A stretch of DNA of 64,000 bases from Chryseobacterium sp. Leaf404 (GTDB lineage: Bacteria > Bacteroidota > Bacteroidia > Flavobacteriales > Weeksellaceae): contig NZ_LMQM01000010.1 of NCBI RefSeq assembly GCF_001424145.1, positions 382,833 to 446,832 on the forward strand, given 5' to 3'. A program made the position numbers and the translations under genes. Shown piece by piece: positions 19,510-53,846 of the stretch. Every line of letters starts with the position of its first letter. Within the stretch, counting starts at the first letter, position 1. The notes under the pieces are model-generated. The model had not been told where the DNA came from. It ran no database searches and saw nothing but the letters and a program-made list of their open reading frames with translations.

Positions 19510-19534
19510 TTGAGTTGGAGGGTTTGTGAGTTTG

Positions 19535-19562
19535 AGAGTTTTAGAGTTTTAGAGTTTTAGAG
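19535..19562 (+). repeat. Short tandem AGAGTTTT repeat
   Basis: Three exact 8-bp units and part of a fourth lie just after the regulator stop, preceded by looser gagttt-type copies. Non-coding. Confidence 0.6.
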
Positions 19563-27679: not shown

Positions 27680-29836
27680 TTACTTTTTAAGAATCTTCGC
27701 AGTCTTCTGGAATCCTTCTGCTTCAATATTTAAAATTAAAACTCTTGAAACATTGAGTTCATTAGTCAAATCTAAATCCAACTGGCTTGTAGAACCGGTA
27801 TAATTTTTCTTAAACACAACCTTTCCGTCGATGCTGTAGGCAGTTACTGCAAGATTTTTCAATGCCTTCGGAGAATTGATTTTTACAATTCCTGAAGTTG
27901 GGTTTGGTGCTACTGTCACTTCTGTTTCTTTGATGACCTCGCTCGTTGCAAGGTTTCCGCTTGTGCCTAAAAACTGTGAAAGAGCTACAACTACAGTGGC
28001 AGATTTTCCTTTGTAATCAATTGTATTTCCTGTTGCATCAATATCTGTACTGATGGTTGAGTTAGGATGCTGAATACTGAAGAAACTGAATTTTTTATCT
28101 GGTGTAAACGTAAGACCAGTAGGTTCCGAACCTGCCGGCATTGATGCAAACAATCTCACGTTCGGGTTAGCCTGAGTGTGATCCGGAGCCACTACCCAAA
28201 TATAGTTTTTTCCGCCATCTTGAAGAACCCAAAGATTTCCAAGTTCGTCAAAAGTAAGGTTGTCATTTCCGTCTCCCCAGGATTCAGTTTTGATTCCCTG
28301 AGCAGTGTTGAAAGAATAAACAGTCGACGCACCTCCCACGAAAGTTTCAACGTTGGTAAGCGTCATCCCATTGTCTGTCATTCTGTATACTTTATCGAAA
28401 CCTTTTGCTGTAAAGTAAATTTTACCATCTAATGGACTGATTTCTACGTCTTCTACTCCATTAAAAGAAGTACCCCCCAAAGACTGAGCTAAAGCCTGAG
28501 TGTTGTTTTGGTCCGCCTTTGTTTTGTTGGGAATCTGAATCCACTGTCCGGTTGTTGACACAGGATCTCCATTGCTAAGACCATTGGTTAACTTTAATAC
28601 ATAAAGATTTCCTGAAGCAAGATTGTTTGGCGTATCCATTACATATTTGTAAACCATGTGTGTTCCGCCGTCTTCGCCGTAGTAAGCGATTGTTCCTGCA
28701 TCATTTACCACTACATTTTCATGATTCATAATTCCCATTTGCCAAAGTTTATCTTTAGTACCGGCAGTATTATGAGACATTACCTGTGCAGTGACAGGAT
28801 TTATCTCTACCAGCCATCCGTAATCTTTGTATCCATCTCCATTGGTGTCATTGGCTGTTACAGATTCTTCAGCAGTAACCACAGTTCCCCAAGGCGTGAT
28901 ACCTCCCGAACAGTTTCTGATGGTCTGCACGAGACTTGTATCTGAAAAGCCTACTGCTCTGGATCTAGACAACTGCCAAAGTTTTGTTGTCGTATTGTAA
29001 TTCACTTCTGCCATGGTCACTCCACCAGGATTGGTTTCATGGTTCACAGATAAATACCCGTCTTCGCTGCTGCTGTTTTTGGGTACGTAAGCCGTAAAGT
29101 CATTAAGACCGCCTACCAAACCTCCGCCTTCTGTGTAAGAATCACCTTCTTTCAGGATCAGCTGATATTTGTGCTCTGCCGGAATAATCAGTTTTGCAGT
29201 TTGTGCTGTTGGAACAATTGAGGTAAAACAGCTTATGTGCGTTCCTGTACAGTTGTTTGCAGGCGGTGTGGGTGTAGGGGTTGTTACAACTGTTTTAAGA
29301 TAAGCATCAATGGTCAGGTCAGAACTTGTAGCACTTCTGTTATGCAGTTCTATAGAAATTCTGTTATTTCCCTGTACAAACTTGTTTTTTGGAATGCTGA
29401 AAACATTTATAGCCGTTTCTGCCGAACCATCAATTGTTGTACTTGAAAACGTGCTGTGAGAAACTGCGCCAGCAGGCATATTGTCTCTGATAACTTCTTC
29501 ACCGTTAAGATACACAATAATGCCGTCGTCTCTTCTCACGCCAAATTCCATACTGTTGGTTAAATCAGCAAGATTTACCGTAAAATCTTTGATGAGATAT
29601 GCGGTGTCAACTCCTGTTATGAAAGGAGTAGTAACAGGATCTCCGTATCCAAGCGGTCCGTTTCCTGAAGCCCATGCAGAAGCGTCGTAGGTTGAGCTTA
29701 TCCAGGTTGCAGGAAGGGCAACATCTGCATCGTTAAATTTCCATGAGCTCTGTAATCCGAAGATTGTAGTCTGTGCCTGGACCATTGAAGCTGTCATCAA
29801 TGCCAAAGCGGCCACTGTAAGTAATTTTCTTTTCAC
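27680..29836 (-). CDS. PhoX/DUF839-like secreted protein with T9SS sorting domain
   Basis: A 718-aa protein. Order: signal peptide 1-21; a beta-sandwich N-terminal domain (about 25-190, SMEFGVRRDDGIIVYLNGEEV), like carbohydrate-binding or discoidin-type modules; a Pro/Thr linker; a DUF839/PhoX-like beta-propeller (about 205-620) with YLSVNHETNPGG, ITPWGTVVTAEES, GIMNHENVVV and GVEDVEISPLDGKIYF; and a type A sorting domain (about 640-718, VAPNPTSGIVKIN). PhoX enzymes are calcium/iron phosphatases. The NHE and TAEES motifs correspond to metal-site motifs, but activity is not proven. The start codon is GTG (29834-29836), with a perfect TAGCTTTG box 27 bases upstream. Confidence 0.83.
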   Translation of the reverse strand: MKRKLLTVAALALMTASMVQAQTTIFGLQSSWKFNDADVALPATWISSTYDASAWASGNGPLGYGDPVTTPFITGVDTAYLIKDFTVNLADLTNSMEFGVRRDDGIIVYLNGEEVIRDNMPAGAVSHSTFSSTTIDGSAETAINVFSIPKNKFVQGNNRISIELHNRSATSSDLTIDAYLKTVVTTPTPTPPANNCTGTHISCFTSIVPTAQTAKLIIPAEHKYQLILKEGDSYTEGGGLVGGLNDFTAYVPKNSSSEDGYLSVNHETNPGGVTMAEVNYNTTTKLWQLSRSRAVGFSDTSLVQTIRNCSGGITPWGTVVTAEESVTANDTNGDGYKDYGWLVEINPVTAQVMSHNTAGTKDKLWQMGIMNHENVVVNDAGTIAYYGEDGGTHMVYKYVMDTPNNLASGNLYVLKLTNGLSNGDPVSTTGQWIQIPNKTKADQNNTQALAQSLGGTSFNGVEDVEISPLDGKIYFTAKGFDKVYRMTDNGMTLTNVETFVGGASTVYSFNTAQGIKTESWGDGNDNLTFDELGNLWVLQDGGKNYIWVVAPDHTQANPNVRLFASMPAGSEPTGLTFTPDKKFSFFSIQHPNSTISTDIDATGNTIDYKGKSATVVVALSQFLGTSGNLATSEVIKETEVTVAPNPTSGIVKINSPKALKNLAVTAYSIDGKVVFKKNYTGSTSQLDLDLTNELNVSRVLILNIEAEGFQKTAKILKK

Positions 29837-29870: not shown

Positions 29871-30179
29871 TCTGTTTCCCGATGGCTTTCCGTTACGCTA
29901 TCTTTAATTAAAAAGTGCTGAATATTAATAAAACTGAAAGTGAATGTTACGAAGTTTAAATTAGTATTAAATTTAAAATTTCATCATTTGCAAAATTCAA
30001 ATTTTTGAGTGGGAAGGGGGCTTTTTTTTCCAATAAGTAACTGCTAACCCCTTCTTTCATTGAATTTGTCGAAATGGCGTTGAACGGTTAACAGGGGACA
30101 ATATTCGATTTTTGAAGAAATCTTAGCAATTTATCAATACTTCGCGCTTTAGCCCGATGATTCAAATGATGCTACGATA

Positions 30180-30261
30180 ATGGCTTTAACCAAAATTTAT
30201 ATCTAAAGTTTTGCTAAAGCCATTCAGATAGTACTAAAACAAAAACGGGCTGAAGCCCGTT
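30180..30261. repeat. REP-like paired hairpins
   Basis: Two hairpins stand in a 740-bp region without genes. The first pairs ATGGCTTTAACCAAAA with TTTTGCTAAAGCCAT around an AT-rich loop (30180-30222). The second is AACGGGCTGAAGCCCGTT (30244-30261). A half-site CGCTTTAGCCCG lies at 30144-30155. The layout resembles repetitive extragenic palindromes. The left part of the gap (29871-30140) shows nothing else that I can identify. Confidence 0.5.
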
Positions 30262-30291
30262 CCTAATGATAACCAGATTTATCGTTAAACT

Positions 30292-30522
30292 ATATTCCTG
30301 AATCCCAAAACAATATTCTTGCTTCCTGAAAGTATATTCTTGCATTCCTAAAAAATATTCTTTCATCCTAAAAGTATATTCTTGCTTCCCAAAAATATAT
30401 TCTTGCTTCCCAAAAGAATATTCTTGCTTCCCAGAACTATATTCTTTCATCCCAAACTTATATTCTTACATCCCAAAACAATATTCTTGCTTCCTGAAGG
30501 CACATCCTTGCAACCCCCGAAA
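30292..30522. repeat. Tandem array of eleven 21-bp units
   Basis: The core ATATTCTTGCTTCCCAAAA recurs with a strict 21-base period at 30292, 30313, 30334, 30355, 30376, 30397, 30418, 30439, 30460, 30481 and 30502; the first and last units are degraded. Because 21 is a multiple of three, the minus strand reads as a heptad repeat (KQEYSFG-like) for seven units, but an in-frame TAA breaks the frame in the unit at 30460. I therefore treat it as non-coding or a decayed coding minisatellite. Confidence 0.9.
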
Positions 30523-30575
30523 CTCTAATCCCCTACCCTTAAAATATAATTTTAAGGATACGGTTCAACGTATGA

Positions 30576-32423
30576 TTATTTTTTCTTCACCCCAGTTTTA
30601 GCCTTGCTGATATCCGTCAGACTATTCAGAAAACTGATCAGTTGCTTTTTCTCAGTCTGTGTAAGATCGAGTTTATCGGCTGGCAAGGTTTGGTTTTTCA
30701 TGGGTAGGCCTAAACCTTCCCCTCCGCCTTCATTGTAAAATTCAATTACCTCTTCCAAAGTTTTGAAAGCACCGTTGTGAAAGTATGGTTTAGTTAAAGC
30801 AATATTTCTGACGGTCATCGTTTTAAAAGAATTTTCATAAATCCAGGAGTTTTCTTTTTTTACGTTAGAATTAATCCTTCCCCTGTCATCATCCAGTTCA
30901 ATTGGAAAATTAATAATCGGTTTTTTGGTTACTCCCAAAACTTCAGATTCATTTTCATTAAAAAACGGAGGAACCAGACCCGAAAAATGCGGCGCAAAAT
31001 GACAGGTCGCACAGTTGGCTTTTCCCATAAAAAGATTAAAACCCTGTTTGGCGTCTTCAGAAACATCCTTTTCATTTCTCATAAAACGGTCAAAATCGCT
31101 TTCAAAAGAATACAGTGAAGCTACAAACGAACTCAAAGCTTTGGAAAAATTCTGTTTTGTGATTTTTTTATCATTAAAAACTTTTAAAAACGACTGCCTG
31201 TATTTTTGATCCGAATTTAATTTGGCAACTATTTTTTCATAATCGGTATCAAATTCATCCTTATTGTAAATCACATGCTCGGCTTGTTGCTCAAGATAAA
31301 AAGCACGCATATCATAGAAAAACCTTTTGGCAAAAACCGCATTATAGAGTGATGGCGAATTCCGTAAAACAGTCTTCCCTTCCACATTGCTCAATGATTT
31401 TGATTTTAAATCGGTGTACGCATTCTCCGGAAGATGACAGCTTGCACAGCTCATTTTACCATTCGAACTTAATCCTGTATCGTAGAAAATCTTTTCGCCC
31501 AGATCTCTCAATTCTTCAATGTCTTCAGAAGGTTTCAGTAAAGTATAAAAATAAGGATCGAAAAAATCGGCTTTAAAAAAATCTTTATTGGCAACATTCC
31601 ATCCCGAAAAGTTTTTGAGATCATCCGGTCTTCCGTCCCAATTCCCAAATTCCTGATACAGCGGCTGGATGAAGTTTTTATAGAATTCAATACGGTCAAA
31701 AGTTTCAAAATCTTTATTTTTCTCCAAATACTGAATGGTTTGATCTAAAATCTGAATGGCTTTTCCAGTTTTAAAACTTTTAAAGTAAACATCATCCAAA
31801 ATATAATTTTTCATTCCCAGCACTGCGTGTGCAGACTCTTCAGAAATATTCAAAGATCCTGGCGTATCAAAACCAGTCACTCCCAAACTGTAAATCCTGA
31901 TTAGCTCGATTCTTAGAGGTAAAGTTTTGTTGGTACCGCTGCTTACGCCATTTTTCAGCGTACTGAGGTAGAAATTGGCGTAACTGTTATACAGAAAACC
32001 GGTGATTGTTTTTATTTCTTCTTTTTTCTTTTCGGCTTCATCAGAAAAAATTATTTCATCTAAAACCTGCATGCCTTCCGGTGGCAAAGTGTACGCGGAT
32101 GTTCCCGCCGCTTCGATATGAAAAAGAGGTGCTGCGTTGAGATGGGTTTTGTTAAATTCCGGATAATGGTAAGCAACAAAAAATTCGATTTCCTTGAAAG
32201 AATTTCTGGTTTTTCTTATGGTTTCACGTAGTTTTTCTACGGTGATCTTGTTTTCAGAAAAAAGTTCGGCATCATTTTTCAGATATTCCAGCTCGATTTT
32301 GAAATTGGTAAGACCCTGGTTTATGAATGTATTTTCATTCTTAAAACCTTTATCCGTAGCATTAAAAGACATGGCAAATAATACAATCAGAATAGCGGGA
32401 ATAAATAAAAAGTAAGATCTCAC
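30576..32423 (-). CDS. Diheme cytochrome-c peroxidase/MauG-like protein
   Basis: A 615-aa protein with an N-terminal membrane anchor or signal (1-20), a 280-residue helical domain of unknown role, and a C-terminal diheme domain. The heme-binding motifs are CASCH (326-330) and CATCH (471-475), with TLRN-like and FHNGAFKTLEEVIEFYNEGGG in the second half. Bacterial diheme peroxidases reduce hydrogen peroxide in the periplasm; MauG relatives modify other proteins. The extra N-terminal domain separates it from classical CcpA (about 340 aa). The start is GTG at 32421-32423, close behind a perfect TAAATTTG box. Confidence 0.9.
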   Translation of the reverse strand: MRSYFLFIPAILIVLFAMSFNATDKGFKNENTFINQGLTNFKIELEYLKNDAELFSENKITVEKLRETIRKTRNSFKEIEFFVAYHYPEFNKTHLNAAPLFHIEAAGTSAYTLPPEGMQVLDEIIFSDEAEKKKEEIKTITGFLYNSYANFYLSTLKNGVSSGTNKTLPLRIELIRIYSLGVTGFDTPGSLNISEESAHAVLGMKNYILDDVYFKSFKTGKAIQILDQTIQYLEKNKDFETFDRIEFYKNFIQPLYQEFGNWDGRPDDLKNFSGWNVANKDFFKADFFDPYFYTLLKPSEDIEELRDLGEKIFYDTGLSSNGKMSCASCHLPENAYTDLKSKSLSNVEGKTVLRNSPSLYNAVFAKRFFYDMRAFYLEQQAEHVIYNKDEFDTDYEKIVAKLNSDQKYRQSFLKVFNDKKITKQNFSKALSSFVASLYSFESDFDRFMRNEKDVSEDAKQGFNLFMGKANCATCHFAPHFSGLVPPFFNENESEVLGVTKKPIINFPIELDDDRGRINSNVKKENSWIYENSFKTMTVRNIALTKPYFHNGAFKTLEEVIEFYNEGGGEGLGLPMKNQTLPADKLDLTQTEKKQLISFLNSLTDISKAKTGVKKK

Positions 32424-50921: not shown

Positions 50922-53846
50922 TTAAAAAGTGATGTTTGCTCCAAATATAAACGTTCTCGCCTGTGGATAAAATGCCCGGTCAATACCAAAGCTGTCACCA
51001 GCGGCAATTTCAGGATCATAACCTGTATATTTTGTAAATGTAACGAGATTTTCTGCTGTCACATAAAATCTAACTTTACTTGAACCAATACTTTCTGTAA
51101 CAGAAGAAGGAAGTGTGTAACCTAACTGAACCAGCTTCAATCTTACATAATCACCTTTCTGAAGGTAATAGTTTGAAAGTCTTGAATAATTCTGATTAGG
51201 ATCGTCTCTTGTAAGTCTTGGAGCTTCATTTGTAGAACCTTCACCAGTCCATCGATCTAAGATGGTAGTCTGATAATTGGCATCAATCATATCTAGTCTT
51301 CTTAGACCCTGGAAGATTTTATTACCTGCAGCACCTTGTGCAAACGCCATAAAATCCCAGTTTTTATAACTTAGATTAGCTGTTAATCCAAAAGTATACT
51401 TCGGAATTGAACTTCCCAGATTTACTTTATCATTATTATCAATTTTTCCGTCGCCGTTAGAATCAGCCCAGATAAAATCTCCAGGTTTTGCATTTGGAAG
51501 AATCATCTGTCCTCCGGAATTTACATAAGAATTAATTTGTGCCTGATTTTGGAATACTCCCAATGTCTGGAATCCGTAGAAAGAATTATAAGCCTGCCCA
51601 ACCTGAATTCTTTGAATCGGACCCATAGACTGAAATCCCGGACCATCTAAATATTCTCTGCCTCTTTCTAAGCTCGTTACAGTATTTTTAAGGTAAGCAA
51701 AATTACCGTTTAAAGAGACCGTAAAATTTGACCAGTTTTTTCTGTAGCCTAATTCAACTTCTACACCTTCATTTTCCATATCACCAATGTTTGCGGTGGG
51801 AGAAACAGTAACACCTACATATCCAGGGATATTGATCTGACGCAGAATATCAGAAGTTTTTTTCTTATAATAATCCACTGTAAGATTAAAATTATTAAAT
51901 AATTTCAAATCTGCAGCAATGTTCAGCTGTGAAGTCGTTTCCCATTTCAAATCTTTGTTTTCTAAAGTGTTTGGAATATATCCAGGATAAATTACGGGGT
52001 TTCCCTGAGCATCTATAAAAGTGTAATTGGCACCTGAAACGTAGAAGCTTGCAAACTGAAAATCTCCAATCCCATCATTACCCAAAATACCATATCCTCC
52101 GCGAAGTTTTAAAGTATTTATAATTTTATTTTCAGGCCAGAAGCTTTCTTTATCAACATTCCAACCTAAAGAGAAAGCAGGGAAAGTTCCCCAGTGATTA
52201 TTTTCACCAAATTTTGAAGATCCATCTGTTCTTAAAGTTCCGGTAAATAAATATTTATTGTCATAATCGTAGATAACCCTGCCAAAGTACGATGCTTTAT
52301 GGGTGTTGATATAATCCCATGCATTGGTATTCCTCTTGTCTGGTGCAACAAAGAAGTTGAAAGAGGCGTCCTGCCAGTTGTTTACTGGCAGACCTGTATG
52401 CGTAACCGTTTGTCCGAAACCAATGTTGTACTCATAATATCCATTCCCGATTAATGCATTGATATTGTGTTTTCCAAAACGGTTTTGATAGCTTAAAGTA
52501 TTCTCAGAGCTCCATTCAAATTTCTGTTGTGTTGTTCTGCTTAAGCTGTTTATACTTAAATTATTGTAATTCGGATTCAAATAAAATAAAGGCGTAAAGT
52601 TTTTGCTTCCCCAATATGCCTTTTTACCGTTCATGGAAGATTTCAACGTAAAATGTTTTAGAAACTTCACTTCGGCATAAACGTTTCCAACAAGGTCATC
52701 AGACCAGCCCACATTTCCAAGCTGAGTATTTCTAAATGCTAAAGGATTAGACATTTCCTGATTTACGTATGGAGAAATACCATACGGATTTCCATATTCG
52801 TCCCTGAAAAGATAAGGGGCAATTGATGGATTATTGTATGGTGCACTGTTTAGAACACTGGGATCTGTAATCACAGCAGGAGTGACAGGATCTAAATTAA
52901 TTGCAGAACTTAAAGGACCTCCGAATTCTCCGTTTGAGTTAATTCCCTGGTTTTTTGTGTTTGTATATGCAAAAGTTTGCCCTAAAGTTAACCAGTCTGT
53001 CACTTTATGCGAAGAGTTGATCCTACCTGTAAGTCTTTTGTAGTAAGAAATATCACTCATTACAATACCGGTCTGATCATAATAACCGAAAGATCCGAAA
53101 AATGTAGATTTCTCGTTTCCGCCGCTCACACTTACCTCATGATTTGATCTTGTAGAATTATTGAAAATAAGACTTTGCCAATCTGTTCCTTCGCCCAGAC
53201 TTGCAACATTGGAGAAACGTGGAGCTTTGCCGTCATTGGTAAGACCTTCGTTTATTACTGTTGCGTATTCAGTTGCATTAAGAAGATCTAACTTTTTCGC
53301 AGCTTTACCAAATCCGTAGAAACCATTGTATGATAAATTGAGTTTGCCCCGTTTTCCTTTTTTAGTAGTTACTAAGATCACTCCTCGTGCTGCAGATACT
53401 CCGTAAATCGCAGAAGAAGCTCCATCTTTCAGTACCTCAATACTTTCAATATCAGATTGATTAAGCCATCCAATACCGTCTACTACAATACCGTCTACTA
53501 CCCACAAAGGATCGTTGCTCGAAGAATAGCTGGTTACCCCTCTTACACGGATAGTTGCAGATGATCCAGGCTGGCCCGAATTGGTAATTACATTTACACC
53601 TGCAGCTCTACCCTGCAATACCTGCTCAGGTTTACCTGCCGGAATATTCTCAATATCACTCGCTTTTATGCTGGATATTGCTCCCGTTACATTACTTTTT
53701 CTTTGGGTACCATATCCAATCATAACCACTTCCTCAATCTTCTGCTCTTTCTGAACAGTGTCTGCCGGTGTAGTCTGCGCATTGAAATTTGCCGTAAAAT
53801 AAAGCGCGGCAATAATCCCCAAACCTCTTGATATTCTTACATTCAT
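50922..53846 (-). CDS. SusC/RagA TonB-linked outer-membrane transporter
   Basis: A 974-aa receptor: signal peptide 1-23, TonB box around 38-46 (IEEVVMIGYG), plug domain about 50-165 with VRGVTSYSSSNDPLWVVDGI, and a barrel to the C-terminal strand ending FGANITF. It lacks the carboxypeptidase-regulatory domain that precedes the plug in many SusC proteins, so it is short for the family. It imports oligosaccharides with the SusD partner immediately downstream. It is the first gene of the leftward glucan locus and is divergent from the MFS gene across 176 bases. Confidence 0.97.
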   Translation of the reverse strand: MNVRISRGLGIIAALYFTANFNAQTTPADTVQKEQKIEEVVMIGYGTQRKSNVTGAISSIKASDIENIPAGKPEQVLQGRAAGVNVITNSGQPGSSATIRVRGVTSYSSSNDPLWVVDGIVVDGIGWLNQSDIESIEVLKDGASSAIYGVSAARGVILVTTKKGKRGKLNLSYNGFYGFGKAAKKLDLLNATEYATVINEGLTNDGKAPRFSNVASLGEGTDWQSLIFNNSTRSNHEVSVSGGNEKSTFFGSFGYYDQTGIVMSDISYYKRLTGRINSSHKVTDWLTLGQTFAYTNTKNQGINSNGEFGGPLSSAINLDPVTPAVITDPSVLNSAPYNNPSIAPYLFRDEYGNPYGISPYVNQEMSNPLAFRNTQLGNVGWSDDLVGNVYAEVKFLKHFTLKSSMNGKKAYWGSKNFTPLFYLNPNYNNLSINSLSRTTQQKFEWSSENTLSYQNRFGKHNINALIGNGYYEYNIGFGQTVTHTGLPVNNWQDASFNFFVAPDKRNTNAWDYINTHKASYFGRVIYDYDNKYLFTGTLRTDGSSKFGENNHWGTFPAFSLGWNVDKESFWPENKIINTLKLRGGYGILGNDGIGDFQFASFYVSGANYTFIDAQGNPVIYPGYIPNTLENKDLKWETTSQLNIAADLKLFNNFNLTVDYYKKKTSDILRQINIPGYVGVTVSPTANIGDMENEGVEVELGYRKNWSNFTVSLNGNFAYLKNTVTSLERGREYLDGPGFQSMGPIQRIQVGQAYNSFYGFQTLGVFQNQAQINSYVNSGGQMILPNAKPGDFIWADSNGDGKIDNNDKVNLGSSIPKYTFGLTANLSYKNWDFMAFAQGAAGNKIFQGLRRLDMIDANYQTTILDRWTGEGSTNEAPRLTRDDPNQNYSRLSNYYLQKGDYVRLKLVQLGYTLPSSVTESIGSSKVRFYVTAENLVTFTKYTGYDPEIAAGDSFGIDRAFYPQARTFIFGANITF

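Follow-up and report, generated by a model that had tools for sequence, protein, structure and literature searches.

On balance, we favour the view that a tandem array of 21-bp units in Chryseobacterium sp. Leaf404 is a non-coding, phase-constrained platform for the cooperative assembly of a sequence-specific protein. We further take it as a solitary copy of an array type that belongs to one subfamily (c0-A) of a family of ~240-aa all-helical proteins, here called c0. Such arrays recur at fixed places in related bacteria and, with few exceptions, next to genes of this one protein family, which gives them the look of docking platforms for a protein. The array was studied in a stretch of 64,000 nucleotides (the window) and compared with related arrays in other genomes.

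A strictly phased 21-bp array downstream of a MauG-like gene

The 21-bp array was the top-scoring tandem array that TRF reported in the window (period 21, 9.9 copies, zero indels, 30287-30494, score 227). On a grid starting at 30292, the sequence divides into eleven units, each of exactly 21 bp, confirming the strictly periodic array of the original prediction. The ATATTC core, which was said to fall every 21 bases, opens ten of these units; the eleventh is degenerate and starts with ACATCC. The ten exact cores and the degenerate unit are assigned to 30287-30516. The core is the 10-letter word ATATTCTTGC on the + strand, which repeats every 21 letters, and the spacer is mainly ATCCCAAAANN.

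The array starts about 55 bp past the stop codon of a MauG-like gene and, together with a pair of REP-like palindromes, is situated upstream of the start of a PhoX-like gene (Table 1). The inverted repeat between the MauG-like gene and the array is a possible terminator, and a similar inverted repeat was seen at the equivalent site in L172 and L173. The REP-like hairpins previously noted beside the array were recovered by a pattern search as two palindromes; they are about 100 bp apart, above chance in the window, and are not parts of the array. No match to Rfam was obtained for the window. Short tandem repeats unrelated to the array are present at 19512-19562 (8/16-bp GAGTTTGA) and 53471-53501 (15-bp CAATACCGTCTACTA).

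Table 1. Position of the 21-bp array and of the features around it in the window
Feature	Position	Strand	Basis
PhoX-like gene	27680..29836	-	Pfam PhoX E=5.4e-42
REP-like palindrome CGCGCTTTAGCCCG, not a part of the array	30143..30156	+	pattern search
78-aa ORF with heptads KQEYSFG, judged spurious	30214..30450	-	ORF list; each of the six frames contains stops in the set of 40 related arrays
REP-like palindrome CGGGCTGAAGCCCG, likewise not a part of the array	30246..30259	+	pattern search
Array of eleven 21-bp units, strictly phased	30292..30522	+	TRF and unit listing
Inverted repeat CCTTAAAATATAATTTTAAGG, right after the MauG-like stop	30536..30558	.	read from the sequence
CCP_MauG di-haem cytochrome c peroxidase (MauG-like) gene	30576..32423	-	Pfam CCP_MauG E=1.9e-45; ORF list

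The array is non-coding and of ordinary curvature

The period equals seven codons and the minus strand is open in part, so that a heptad-repeat protein, decayed or live, had to be considered. The minus-strand heptads and the in-frame stop (ATG TAA) that had been described are both present in the sequence, and the 78-aa ORF overlaps the array in part only. In 40 related arrays, with 3594 codons per frame, we counted 103-245 stops in each of the six frames compared to about 231 expected, and no frame was open in more than 10 of the 40 arrays. The idea of a decayed repeat protein is thus abandoned, and a heptad-repeat protein of either kind has next to no probability. The other half of that proposal, a non-coding array with two-turn spacing as a candidate protein binder, is supported by the strict phase, the position-specific core and the linkage to one gene family.

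The suggestion that the array bends DNA was not borne out. In a dinucleotide wedge model, its curvature was below that of most arrays made by permuting the columns of its units, 79% of which were equally or more curved. An intrinsically curved DNA element was rejected on these grounds; the curvature predicted by the model is ordinary for a 21-bp repeat.

Core and phase of the unit are conserved

The 40 arrays contain 507 units with the consensus ATATTCTTGCatCcnnAAAnt. Positions 1-5, 7, 10, 13 and 17-18 (AA at 17-18) are conserved, and positions 11-12, 14-16 and 19-21 are variable. Cores lie 21, 42, 63, 84, 105 or 126 bp from each other, with very few off-phase pairs. A length of 21 bp corresponds to two turns of the DNA helix, and the 10-bp core would be shown on one helix face every two turns.

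As most of the arrays had been found via a match to the core, a spacer-first search with TCCCAAAA was run as a check for ascertainment bias. The arrays recovered in this way bear the same core, the exceptions being isolated non-array matches and one unrelated repeat in G098. A control with 22-bp spacing gave scattered single matches and nothing more. In addition, a periodicity scan free of sequence bias over 1.6 Mb of the sister genome of C. caseinilyticum returned 243 scan windows at 21 bp, compared to none at each of 19, 20, 22 and 23 bp, three at 18 bp and 12 at 17 bp. The 21-bp-periodic regions of this species number 14: about half are heptamer simple repeats, three belong to the family of the window array, one is the array of a second c0 subfamily (c0-B), and three are unrelated in sequence and have no c0 neighbour. 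Contig C1 of G104 has 21- or 42-bp arrays of other sequence, again with no c0 nearby, at three sites (around 155.1, 546.1 and 1436.7 kb), one of them following a HemJ-like gene, along with several heptamer simple repeats that likewise give a 21-bp signal.

Array loci are few, orthologous and close to gene ends

The contig that holds the window array also carries a second one, made of 21 units, between a HemS/ChuX-like gene and a gene that we take to be ChaN-like. This second array has two spacer types, yet the core and the exact phase are kept. BLAST searches with the window array gave matches in 25 of 148 Chryseobacterium genomes. In 41 of 173 Chryseobacterium genomes, at least two cores stand 21 bp apart when up to two mismatches are allowed; some of these are single matches and probably due to chance, and the reversed pattern gave scattered single matches. 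The same core is common to Chryseobacterium, Epilithonimonas and Kaistella. Most Chryseobacterium species lack the arrays, and the array is therefore dispensable.

In the roughly 25 Chryseobacterium genomes concerned, the arrays occupy few orthologous loci near gene ends (gene names recognised from sequence, except those tested with Pfam). These are downstream of c0, usually facing a pnp or cold-shock gene (13 arrays), the HemS-ChaN locus (7), the GGT-symporter locus (4), the c13 locus (4), the window locus (3) and the mutA-prolyl oligopeptidase locus (3). None of 39 arrays lies between divergent genes. The arrays are placed directly past stop codons with the core mostly on the sense strand; at the window locus and the mutA-prolyl oligopeptidase locus, it runs antisense to the gene on either side. 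Haem-related neighbours occur at three loci, a number that we took to be too small to be meaningful.

In other species (L175-L179), the intergenic region at the window locus is short and empty of the array, and the two sister species that do have it there are distinguished by whole units (42 bp). The empty sites and the whole-unit differences indicate that arrays can appear and disappear and that their turnover proceeds by units. An array absent from other strains and invariant would have counted against the original prediction; instead, two other species carry it at the corresponding site with altered units, in a comparison set of one genome per species.

The array DNA gave no match in the plasmid and phage collections, and viral contigs gave one chance-like array match. 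Arrays with the word ATATTCTTGC at ~20.6- to 21-bp spacing were also seen in Bacillota, in L061 and L095 (Paenibacillus bovis DE0126) and in L065 and L086 (Ca. Pseudogracilibacillus). As these were found by searching that very word, they may reflect convergence or chance. In Subsaxibacter sp. CAU 1640 (L070, near 4010), a 21-bp array mixes ATATTCTTGC-type and AAATTATGGC-type units with the common spacer GGTYGCAAC.

Genes of the c0 family are almost always accompanied by an array

Within the host's bacterial family, 72 of 296 genomes and 12 of 33 genera contain homologs of c0, whose genes nearly always have a 21-bp array next to them; across the phylum the homologs are sparser, in a sample drawn mainly from that one family. 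They occur in several genomic contexts, with up to five matches per genome, and c0-A has a conserved locus beside a pnp or cold-shock gene in many species. The 420 bp past the stop codon were 21-bp periodic at 48 of 55 c0 loci, corresponding to 46 of 53 distinct genes, as two loci were entered twice. The same downstream test, applied to 46 ORFs of the window as a control, was positive for one, and this one was the window array itself. Beyond the 46 genes of the automatic test, four further c0 genes have an array on inspection: the array of L250 is clear by eye, that of L253 lies about 1.1 kb downstream, and it sits upstream of the c0 gene in L269 and L270, both distant homologs, and is weaker in L270. 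The L227 locus runs into the edge of its contig, and no clear array is seen at L267 and L271.

The repeat word differs by c0 subfamily. Members of c0-A (at least 60% identity) have the word ATATTCTTGC or close variants, and c0-B (~38% identity) has the word RCTCCRMCCAAAAG (RCTCCRMCCAAAAGMAAT). Further subfamilies and other genera have words of their own, as in the arrays of L230 (GCATCCCGATTTAAGATATTA), L233 (TAATCTTGCTCCTGCGAACAG), L268 from another family of the same order (TTCAAAAACsTATsGTAwmAA) and L269 from another family of the same class (GCATCGCTACACCRCA). In C. caseinilyticum, c0-A and c0-B are both present, each beside its own distinct array. Over 296 genomes, c0-A and array presence were associated (22/9/23/242, odds ratio 26, P 4e-14), in a statistic that ignores phylogeny and in which the c0 locus itself counts among the array sites.

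In the genome of the window, a search for c0 did not find the gene, and no convincing c0 remnant was present near its arrays. The window array may thus be an orphan or be read by another protein. A c0-B protein gave no match in the plasmid and phage collections. Two contigs of IMG/VR that are classed as viral (L280 and L281) encode c0 homologs (36-41% identity) with 21-bp arrays of their own, with other words; L280 has adenine-methylase-like and tail-fibre-like ORFs nearby and is perhaps the edge of a prophage.

The c0 protein is predicted to be all-helical

An AlphaFold2 model of c0, built from a three-sequence alignment, was confident and all-helical (pLDDT 82.5, pTM 0.72). Its two halves are alike in the order of helices, with a weak profile match between the N- and C-terminal half, and c0 appears to consist of one four-helix unit that was duplicated within the protein (SxSE..N..L..YNP and SxS..N..L..Y.PNE). 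It is tempting, if speculative, to match the two halves to the two turns of the 21-bp unit.

In Pfam, a c0-A member had no match and the family as a whole drew no more than weak, scattered ones, and profile searches gave sub-threshold matches to HU_rel (E=0.03) and phrog_36428 (E=0.07). Sequence searches of the PDB returned only weak 14-3-3 matches. With the predicted fold, generic helical bundles were retrieved (best Z 9.3), a mixture of receptor sensor and BAR-like folds that means little for helical bundles, and no DNA-binding relative was found in the PDB. Neither a catalytic nor a transposase-like domain was found in c0. The pI ranges from 5.6 to 9.6 and is not consistently basic. As the fold searches give generic bundles and the pI is not uniformly basic, we infer DNA binding by c0 from the genomic linkage and not from its fold.

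Comparison with known repeats

Plasmid iterons are direct repeats of ~20-22 bp in helical phase that have a conserved core and lie beside a gene. The 21-bp arrays share this size, phasing, core and neighbouring gene with iterons. Unlike iterons, they are chromosomal. No Rep-like protein was identified in c0, which gave no match to known replication initiator families in Pfam and profile searches, and neither the array DNA nor a c0-B protein had a match in the plasmid collection. REP/BIME elements are likewise dispersed extragenic repeats near gene ends; they are palindromic, whereas the arrays consist of direct, non-palindromic repeats, and the adjoining REP-like palindromes are separate from them.

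The closest resemblance is to the constant-size satellites of 20-21 nt described in Bacillus and other bacteria by Subirana and Messeguer, which contain a short conserved signal, have no known function and for which a polymerising protein has been proposed (PMC8161180). These satellites have a constant repeat size, are non-coding, carry a short signal in their units and form several families per genome, as is the case here (PMC8161180). For the family of the window array, the constant size is seen in TRF and the spacing histograms, the non-coding status in 40 arrays, and the signal in ATATTCTTGC with AA at 17-18. Taking size, coding status and signal as the defining satellite traits (PMC8161180), we file the window array as a satellite variant. 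The Bacillus families are described as specific to a single species or its close relatives (PMC8161180), a property rather than a definition, whereas here the core is shared by many species and three genera and the arrays sit at orthologous places. Moreover, the accessible parts of that source mention no partner gene family (PMC8161180), in contrast to c0 here. A search of the open-licence literature found no report of 21-bp arrays in Chryseobacterium or Flavobacterium.

Alternative explanations and proposed model

A neutral minisatellite, in which slippage makes and homogenises functionless 21-bp units and the phase is kept by whole-unit gain or loss, fits the 42-bp difference between the sister species and the many species without arrays, and the avoidance of divergent promoter regions is expected of harmless insertions. 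However, neutral slippage predicts neither the constraint on core and phase nor the linkage: both core and phase are kept in units whose spacers differ freely, the same core persists across species at orthologous loci, and one gene family is tied to arrays that are unrelated in sequence and equal in period. We regard this explanation as unlikely. Quite improbable is an element acting at the RNA level, in which the array would form part of a 3'-UTR or give a small RNA, with its repeated word binding or sponging an RNA-binding protein. The position past stop codons and the mostly sense core agree with it, RNA fold z-scores are modest (-1.9 and -2.4), and the related Bacillus satellites have been proposed to be transcribed (PMC8161180). 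This is in contrast to the antisense core at the window and mutA-prolyl oligopeptidase loci, to the terminator-like hairpins that separate gene and array at several loci, and to the upstream arrays of L269 and L270.

It is likewise quite improbable that c0 and its array form a selfish cassette, the solitary arrays being relics left after loss of c0 or copies spread by the cassette. Such a cassette would account for the varied contexts and multiple matches of c0, for the two copies on IMG/VR contigs and for the solitary arrays of genomes in which no c0 is seen, that of the window among them. The c0-A locus is nevertheless conserved in many species, the protein lacks a recognisable catalytic or transposase-like domain, and the window array has no c0 remnant near it.

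In the favoured reading of the array as a phase-constrained platform, a sequence-specific protein would most likely assemble cooperatively on the units. The home of this array type would be beside the c0 gene, and the window array would be a solitary copy. Judging from the sequence comparisons, the conserved core is a putative protein contact, and the candidate binder is c0 or else a protein that acts together with it. More tentatively, we propose a two-part system in which the two-fold repeated c0 protein recognises its cognate arrays, both beside its own gene and scattered at gene ends. Together they could build chromosomal nucleoprotein arrays in helical phase for nucleoid organisation, segregation or transcription insulation, with word and protein co-diverging. 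What seems to be new is that the arrays are tied to one gene family, with a word for each subfamily, that they sit at orthologous places and that they have a core in common. Constant-size satellites of 20-21 nt have been known in many bacteria without a function or a partner. The linkage to c0 offers one candidate partner, and the question can be tested directly with purified protein and synthetic DNA.
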